From a virus, in IMG/VR virus record IMGVR_UViG_3300021957_000248, positions 1 to 26,448 of that record: DNA of 26,448 bases; one strand, given 5' to 3'. The notes under the pieces are model-generated. The model saw only the letters and a list, made by a program, of their open reading frames with translations. It was not told where the DNA came from and made no database searches. The translations under genes were made by a program, and so were the position numbers. Shown piece after piece: positions 24,173 through 26,243 of the stretch (position 1 is its first letter; each line of letters begins with the position of its first letter).

Positions 24173-25326
24173 TACGCAGCGGCCCCCGACATTGAATCAG
24201 TATTACCCCGTTCTTTGGTTAGATCCCCAAAATCGGTTCCGTTACCAAGAGTGTCTATTGTGACATACGTAATCTCATCTCTTTTATTAGGATAATTCGC
24301 AGTACCACCAGAATAACAGGCTCTAGTTTCATTACACGACATCCCACCCAACCAAGTGTCATCACCCATATCCCCAAAGCTAGATGCGTTACCTGCAGAA
24401 GATGTGTCGAAATAATATATTTCAGAAAATTCAACAAAACCTTGCTTTCTGCCCCTACAATGCAAAACCCTAGTATCGTTACCACAGGCTTTTGTGTTCA
24501 TACAAGCGAGTGCAAGATCACCCCAATCAGTAGCGTTACCCGTTGTTTGTATTACAATAGAACAAATTCGGTCAGTCAGGCCGTTATTGCCGTTCCCGCC
24601 CATAAAGAAGCCTCTAGTGCCATCACTAGCCACTCCCATTGCTTGATAATCGTTGTCTGTAATGTCTCCAAAATCAGCAGTGTTTGCAGAGGATTCTATA
24701 CTTTTATACTCAATACGGTTATCGGTGCTTGTAAATCCAGAAACAAACATTCGGTCTGCATCATTGTCTGCACAAGTGTCTTGTTTAGCTACTCCTATAT
24801 CACCATACTGACTTGAATTACCTAAAGTGGCAGTAAGAATTGTCCGAATATTCGGAGTCAAAGTACCTTGTATATTTCCAGAGATAATAAATCCTCGACC
24901 AGATCCCGCCGTACAAGAACTAGACGAGATATAATGTGCATCATCTCCAAAGTCAGAAGCATTACCAAGGGTGGTAAAATCCCAATAATCAATGGTATTA
25001 CCATAATTGCTAGTACTTGAATACTCAACTGCGCTATATCCCGGCCCCTGTATTCCCCTATCGCCGTAATGCGAAGGTAAAGCGGGTGGTGAAGCTCCCA
25101 AAGTAACCGTTTGCCACTCACTGTTTGCATAGATCATTAATTCGCTGTTTGTAGTATCCCACCAAACTGCACCATCACTAGGGCTTGATGGCTCAGTACC
25201 ACTACTCGTAAAACTGGAAGTACCTATACTGCCTAGAGCAACACCACCCACGGTTGGGGCGGTAGTGAAGTTGGGTGCGCCTGTTCCAGCGGCATCAACG
25301 ATTGTATCTACACGAATTTCGGTCAT
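24172..25326 (-). CDS. Kelch-like tail fibre / receptor-binding protein, paralogue 3 (384 aa)
   Basis: This is the first of the three tandem paralogues in transcription order. The leader [20 protein letters not shown] and the element [20 protein letters not shown] form the attachment part. About six repeats follow (FGDD, YGDI, FGDI, WGDL, FGDM, FGDL), with strands such as [16 protein letters not shown] and [11 protein letters not shown]. Its repeat faces differ from those of paralogues 1 and 2 more than these differ from each other, for example [11 protein letters not shown] and [10 protein letters not shown]. That would suit a different ligand. Its start overlaps the end of the cupredoxin-domain gene by four bases (ATGA). 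Confidence 0.8.
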
Positions 25327-26243
25327 AGGATTACGTGCCTTCCCCCAGCCGCAATAGTTAAAGTTACGCCGCTGGCAATAGTAAGCGGCCCAACTGTTAG
25401 AGCGCTTTCTGTGGCTCCTACTGTGGTGTTAGTCGTAAGAGTGCGTGAGGCCACGTTTACTGTGCCAAACCCTGCCGAAGAAGTTATTGTGCCGAATTGA
25501 AGAGTTCCGCTGCCAGTTGTTTTTAAAACCTGGTTTGCACTCCCGTCAGACGTAGGGAGCGTAAAAGTAGACACAAAGCTTTGCAGGTTTGCATCATAAG
25601 CCAAGGCGTCTGTACCAACCACCGGCGGTCTTACAACGATTGCCCCGCCCATGCCTGAGTGGTTTGCGCAGTAGTAATAAAGCGCTGGGCAATCCTGTTC
25701 TAGCTTCACCTCAATATAGGCCCCTGCAGTGCCCTGTGTGCCCACTTCGGTGATGCCGGTAGTGAATTGCGAACCGCTGTTGTGAGTGCCGTCTGAGGTT
25801 GTGCTGAAGCGGAAAGGATGACCTGATATGGAACTTGCCGAAACATCAAAACGATAAGTCACCGAAGGCACCAAGGTCAGAGTTTGATTGGCAGTTCCAT
25901 CGACCACAAACTCACCGTTCAGAACGATGACATTGATGTCTGCGTAAAGGAGATCCAAATCATTGGCAGAGGCGCTGATAAAGACTTTGGCATTGCCAGA
26001 CAGGTTCAACAAACTGCCTGTACTTGAACTCGTTAATGTACGGGAAAGCGTACTCCCTGAATGGGTATATACACCTGTAGATACTTCCCAGGCGCCGCCG
26101 GTATCCTCAATTACCAGCCGAACCGTGTGCCCATCTAAAGAAGAAGGCACGGCCTGATAGCCAGTCTCCGCAGAGCCTAGCGTAACCGTGCCTGTGCCTG
26201 TCGTAGAGGTCGAAACCTTTACACGATCTGCGAACCGAGCCAT
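25323..26243 (-). CDS. Tail protein with cupredoxin-like (type 1 copper) domain (306 aa)
   Basis: Residues 1-100 ([20 protein letters not shown] to GYQAVP to [18 protein letters not shown]) are a phage tail leader module. Residues about 105-205 read as a cupredoxin: a beta start ([20 protein letters not shown]), H142 in SGHPFRFS, and YYYC192ANH195SGM198GG. The H...C-x2-H-x2-M set has the same C/H/M spacing as amicyanin, and all four copper ligands are present. The C-terminus ([20 protein letters not shown], ending GGRHVIL) resembles other phage fibre ends. GC content is clearly higher here than in the left part (57% in a counted line at 25681). AAGGAAC stands about six bases before the ATG. 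Copper binding is predicted from ligand residues only; the domain may have kept the fold without metal. Confidence 0.75.

Follow-up and report, generated by a model that had tools for sequence, protein, structure and literature searches.

Can a fibre-type phage protein carry the metal site of a blue-copper protein, and if so, what would such a site do on the surface of a virus particle? The question is raised by an ORF of 306 amino acids in a 26,448-base virus record (the window, i.e. the whole stretch of DNA that was analysed). An earlier note, made from the letters of this DNA, had described the product as a tail-leader module fused to a domain with four type 1 copper ligands in amicyanin-like spacing, and had considered such a protein unusual. 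We therefore analysed the gene and its setting, the conservation of the four residues, the fold of the domain and its occurrence in phages and cells.

Genomic setting of the ORF

The ORF is a real gene because it shares a four-base overlap with the next gene and has a syntenic counterpart, 90% identical, in contig L003. Its product matched the PHROG tail-fibre families 30742 and 693 at ~1e-14, and these matches, together with its position among head and fibre-like genes in L003, identify it as a phage virion protein of the fibre type. The features of the locus are as follows.

25323 to 26243, minus strand: ORF of 306 aa encoding a virion-type protein with a predicted cupredoxin-like domain (ATG start, PHROG matches, counterpart in L003)
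25944 to 26243, minus strand: N-terminal module, residues 1–100, common to many marine phage fibre-like proteins
25626 to 25937, minus strand: predicted cupredoxin-like domain, residues 103–206 (AF2 model, Foldseek, profile matches to plastocyanin/pseudoazurin)
25326 to 25625, minus strand: C-terminal module, residues 207–306 (from the translation; similar ends in other phage proteins)
21903 to 25326, minus strand: three tandem fibre-type proteins of 371–384 aa, as context (from the translations; directly downstream of the ORF)

The same N-terminus as in residues 1–100 was present in L004–L008, L057, L072, L074 and L075, with related forms in L021, L033 and L148. This sharing with marine fibre-like proteins bears out the 'tail-leader' label in part. 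By the gene order in L003 (major head protein, two phrog_240 'head protein' genes, the counterpart of the ORF, three kelch-like fibre proteins), where head genes are the neighbours, the protein could belong to a tail fibre or a head fibre. Ends similar to the C-terminal module were found in other phage proteins, e.g. L157, L012 and L166.

The three tandem paralogues combine a fibre-type N-terminus with a repeated GNATDFGDL-type body that is kelch/beta-propeller-like, their Kelch matches in Pfam being weak and their gene order being the same in L003. They are a possible receptor-binding set. Positions 80–1672 encode a ribonucleotide reductase, of the B12-dependent type by Pfam, on the plus strand, opposite that of the virion genes. 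The occurrence of this enzyme and an SU10-type adaptor in the same 26,448-base record points to a short-tailed phage.

Conservation of the predicted metal site

The spacing C-x2-H-x2-M is that of the amicyanin ligands. H142, C192, H195 and M198 were located in the ORF exactly as had been claimed, at the following positions.

25818 to 25820, minus strand: H142 (SGHPF), predicted copper ligand 1, just before model strand E47-50; aligns with plastocyanin H39
25668 to 25670, minus strand: C192, predicted copper thiolate ligand, at the end of model strand E91-95; aligns with plastocyanin C89
25659 to 25661, minus strand: H195, predicted copper ligand; aligns with plastocyanin H92
25650 to 25652, minus strand: M198, predicted axial ligand; aligns with plastocyanin M97

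When the 306-aa protein was shuffled, the pattern H-x30-60-C-x2-H-x2-M arose in 3 of 20,000 shuffles. All 86 domains of a first homologue set retained the four ligand residues; as one search seed of this set included the ligand motif, the count was not used as proof and the search was redone with an alignment seeded solely on the stretch between H142 and C192. The full set (H plus C-x2-H-x2-M) was then found in 77/78 distinct domains, with spacer residues varying widely. The sole exception, L185, had both histidines changed (SGFSF, CPAQSLM) and retained the cysteine and the methionine. Across 17 diverse domains of phage, archaeal and bacterial-lipoprotein origin, which were 31–86% identical to the domain of the 306-aa protein, the only invariant columns were H142, Y190, C192, H195 and M198.

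A set thinned to 70% identity (nr70; 84 domains) contained 73 full ligand sets and one double-His loss. C, H and M were all gone in 10 further domains, 6 of which had lost the first His as well. Joint retention of the ligands gave a Fisher p of 7e-8, uncorrected for relatedness and to be taken as a guide only since the 10 losers are partly interrelated and some are truncated copies. Loss that is nearly all-or-none fits a metal site, not four independent structural residues. Free replacement of the four residues among homologues, which the earlier note had set against its own reading in advance, was not what we observed, as homologues do not replace the ligands in the search seeded between them (77/78), the 17-domain set or the nr70 set.

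Fold of the domain

An AF2 model of the domain, built with 60 homologues, was all beta (pLDDT 91.6, pTM 0.85) and placed H195 and M198 in the loop before strand E102-107, as in cupredoxins. Foldseek comparison of this model with the PDB returned blue-copper proteins at all of the top 11 ranks (three-domain copper nitrite reductase, rusticyanin), at E ~1e-3 and TM ~0.5 and with Ig domains close behind. With a profile of the 17 diverse domains, 27/29 PDB matches below E 1 were blue-copper or multicopper proteins, pseudoazurin and plastocyanins being at E ~0.02. A structural comparison with blue-copper proteins had been proposed as a check, and by profile alignment with the cyanobacterial plastocyanin 3cvb the four residues H142, C192, H195 and M198 fell on H39, C89, H92 and M97, the copper ligands of plastocyanin. 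A PDB profile made earlier from close homologues had placed SIRP-alpha Ig domains first and plastocyanins at E ~0.9; with the diverse profile, the SIRP matches were gone and blue-copper proteins led.

Family models gave weaker signals. The alignment by hhalign with six canonical cupredoxins was confident for the C-terminal loop only, and PF00127 matched 35/60 domain members weakly (best 3.9e-5), exceeding its curated cut-off in one cellular homologue, a Woeseiaceae lipoprotein. The 306-aa protein alone had no match in Pfam (PF00127 included), in NCBIfam or by phmmer against the PDB, and no solved structure containing the domain was found in the PDB by sequence. Assignment to amicyanin proper was not supported by TIGR02657/NCBIfam, which found nothing for the 306-aa protein, though the C-x2-H-x2-M loop spacing fits. 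The features that place the domain in the cupredoxin superfamily are its fold, as seen in the all-beta model and the placement of the ligands, and the ordered and conserved H, C, H and M of the predicted site.

Taken as a prediction, the claim of a cupredoxin-like fold with a complete and selectively maintained type 1 ligand set thus gained support from AF2, Foldseek, the profiles and conservation. We consider it very likely that the domain is cupredoxin-like and its metal site real. Given a site, copper is the likely metal, and residues 103–206 are probably a cupredoxin-like domain whose type 1 metal site is copper-type and under selection.

Occurrence among phages

Far from being a lone oddity, the domain was widespread. 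A tblastn search with the 98-residue domain recovered 273 phage records, mostly of cyanophages and also of SAR11 and Methylophilales phages, and more than 590 stretches of viral contigs carried it among the matches listed. In these contigs the domain was located at the N-terminus, in the middle or at the C-terminus of fibre-like proteins, and was sometimes in tandem. Judged by sequence, the carriers in L185, L198 and L206 look like lambda-J-type central fibres.

A homologous domain forms the C-terminus of S-SM1 gp9 (L277:17391-18614). This protein is the baseplate wedge tail-fibre connector and has PF07880 as its N-terminal domain. A tblastn search with this gp9 domain recovered 323 phage records, all cyanophage or marine and mostly annotated gp9. 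H and C-x2-H-x2-M were kept, and the spacers free, in 12/12 diverse phages (Syn9, P-SSM2, P-TIM68 and S-SSM7 included), the P-SSM2 carrier being annotated as proximal tail fibre. Ligands were likewise kept in 37/38 distinct stretches of viral contigs, the exception being another repeat. The model of the S-SM1 gp9 domain (pLDDT 86.6) had amicyanin at Foldseek ranks 1–5, and this divergent homologue has the C-x2-H-x2-M spacing of the 306-aa ORF.

The gp9 carriers L277–L288, from marine cyanomyoviruses, are annotated only as gp9 or hypothetical. Further copies of the domain were found in T4-GC399, the gene next to gp9. Gln in place of Met at the axial position is seen in stellacyanins, and this replacement was observed in the second domain (...WCHYHTGQGN...) of a GC399-type protein in L361. 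The C-terminal domain of S-SM1 gp9 also matched PF25489 (At5g54830-like, plant-named) weakly, at E 1e-4, and this family is a possible eukaryotic relative. In S-SM1, 41 proteins were detected by virion proteomics (PMC3037559).

Cellular relatives

Sixty-three genome contigs, nearly all marine, carried the domain. Several of these, in single-cell or metagenome bins, have the look of phage DNA, and others look cellular. In marine Gammaproteobacteria, the domain was found in lipoproteins with an ACGGGG lipobox, where cadherin/Ig repeats precede it (L106, L117). A Cellvibrionales ORF (L103:4563-5684) consisted of three tandem copper-type domains with a C-terminal membrane anchor and adjoined a DsbD gene. 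The domain was also carried by a 9,219-aa ORF of a flavobacterium and by marine Euryarchaeota.

In a tree of 89 domains, based on few columns and with bootstrap not settled, virus and cell labels were interleaved, and its well-supported branches required at least five virus-label changes and at least four cell-label changes. From this interleaving, repeated transfer of the module between phages and cells is probable. The earlier note had entertained mimicry of a host cupredoxin as a way to a redox partner or a copper transporter. This reading found no support, as nothing links the domain to either, and the cellular proteins closest to it are not periplasmic electron carriers but surface lipoproteins and giant adhesin-like ORFs, in which it is the C-terminal domain.

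Nature of the metal and role of the site

In our proposal, marine tailed phages place a mobile module in proteins of the virion surface, and the domain is a copy of it. The carriers of the module are fibre-like proteins, the gp9-type connector of baseplate wedge and tail fibre, and the neighbour of gp9. In marine bacteria and some archaea, surface lipoproteins and giant adhesin-like proteins would end in this module. The site may hold copper, which would most likely be taken up once the particle has left the cell because cytoplasmic copper is scarce. The metal would pin the N-terminal half of the domain (H142) to the C-terminal loop (C192/H195/M198), and the pinned halves would present a stable, pre-shaped Cys-His-Met face. 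Such a face could hold, stabilise or orient the fibre assembly, or contact the host surface, and a redox function is not assumed. This structural-lock or docking-face role is our tentative preference over other roles. A bolder reading appears rather unlikely. In it, working blue-copper centres are a conserved part of marine tailed phage particles, also in the gp9-type connector in the baseplate of most marine cyanomyoviruses sequenced, and copper, or the redox state of the copper, has a part in host attachment or the deployment of fibres. If this were true, virions would constitute a sizeable oceanic reservoir of tightly bound copper.

Assembly of virions takes place in the cytoplasm, which has zinc to offer but very little free copper. 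This favours a real site that is purely a structural lock, its metal being something other than copper or not redox-active (e.g. zinc or Cu(I) acquired in the cytoplasm as the particle is assembled). Phage tail tips also bind structural metals such as iron, via HxH motifs (PMC11705849). However, the residues Cys-His-His-Met, so ordered and spaced, make up the type 1 copper set and fall on copper ligands in the alignment, and a plain zinc site needs no invariant Met. We consider a lock of this kind unlikely. The HxH motif itself is absent from the 306-aa protein, whose histidines are at 39, 61, 142, 154, 195 and 303.

A copper-loaded domain might instead act as a Trojan horse, recognised by copper-uptake or copper-binding proteins of the host surface and so aiding adsorption. 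An iron version has been published for marine phage tails (PMC11705849), and the domain is located in the tail-fibre connector and in fibre-like proteins. Nonetheless, no link to any copper receptor was seen, and the module is also present on bacterial surface proteins and in phages of very different hosts. We consider this use improbable.

The metal-free remnant suggested as an alternative in the earlier note, i.e. an old cupredoxin fold kept solely as an Ig-like structural spacer in fibre proteins, has a real example in a sister family. T4-like cyanophages (S-SM1, S-MS29, ACG-2014d and others) encode T4-GC345 'structural proteins' that have the same fold without the C/H/M ligands, so the fold as such can do without metal, and the proximity of Ig domains to the Foldseek matches fits a spacer too. 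For the 306-aa protein such a remnant is disfavoured, as few positions of the domain are conserved as well as the four ligands, whose neighbours vary, and the ligands disappear together rather than singly. Here we judge a metal-free spacer very improbable. The T4-GC345 proteins in L226, L229, L231–L234, L237 and L239 are encoded upstream of fibre genes.

Lastly, an electron-transfer mimic of plastocyanin or amicyanin reaching a redox partner of the host is hardly credible, despite the cupredoxin fold with its amicyanin-type loop and the many cyanophages among the carriers, since P-SSM2 has a separate plastocyanin gene (L240) besides its tail-protein domains and the domain is a built-in part of large structural proteins, occurring also in SAR11/Methylophilales phages and in extracellular bacterial proteins. 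A mix-up of the domain with that plastocyanin gene (petE) was checked for and excluded.

Relation to known systems

Cupredoxins are well known, and iron is known as a metal of phage tails. Amicyanin (PF00127/TIGR02657, Paracoccus) shares the C-x2-H-x2-M loop and is the nearest solved fold of the gp9-type domain, but is a free periplasmic electron carrier, whereas the phage domain is a module in larger virion proteins with no partner enzyme. The cupredoxin domains of plastocyanin, pseudoazurin, rusticyanin and CuNiR agree in fold class and have all four ligands in register, but differ in loop lengths and are about 20% identical or less. A further known system is gp9 of T4-like cyanophages (T4-GC398, PF07880), whose C-terminal domain is homologous to that of the 306-aa protein and has the four ligands; in contrast, the 306-aa protein lacks the gp9/10 N-terminal domain (PF07880 absent in Pfam) and is found in a phage with an SU10-type adaptor. 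Cyanophage petE (L240) is likewise a phage-encoded type 1 copper protein, but is a separate small gene for photosynthetic electron transport, i.e. an auxiliary metabolic gene, and its product is outside the virion.

The HxH iron tail fibres (T4 gp37 tip, alterophage R22Y) also place metal in phage tails, with a proposed Trojan-horse role (PMC11705849), yet they bind iron via repeated His-x-His, unlike the predicted single-chain Cys/His/His/Met site of the phage domain. Ig-like accessory domains of phage tail proteins resemble the module as mobile beta-sandwiches inserted in many virion proteins, but they are without a metal site and we do not claim a sequence relation between them and the cupredoxin-like domain.

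Searches of the open literature (subscription papers and preprints were outside its scope) found no description of a cupredoxin-like domain with a complete type 1 site as a virion module; PMC8115048 mentions viral nirK, which is unrelated to the virion domain. The carrier proteins are already public, annotated as tail fibre, structural or hypothetical. What appears to be new, as predicted from sequence, is a common virion module that is cupredoxin-like and has a complete type 1 site. Its occurrence across marine phage tail proteins, among them a baseplate protein of most marine cyanophages sequenced, suggests that many marine viruses may carry a copper-type site on the exterior of the particle. 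With the finding, a domain of hundreds of proteins whose annotation is just tail fibre or hypothetical can be named. Should the sites be occupied, copper would be part of the host-contact proteins of many abundant marine phages. The cupredoxin fold would then have gained a new use, and the 'Trojan horse' idea, proposed for iron, would also cover a second metal. The idea is testable at once, as the lab-grown cyanophages Syn9 and S-SM1 have a gp9 with an intact site. In a viral structure library, the domain fold was also matched by the Pithovirus LCPAC302/304 'beta-sandwich proteins' and a Marseillevirus protein (ranks 37, 47 and 50).
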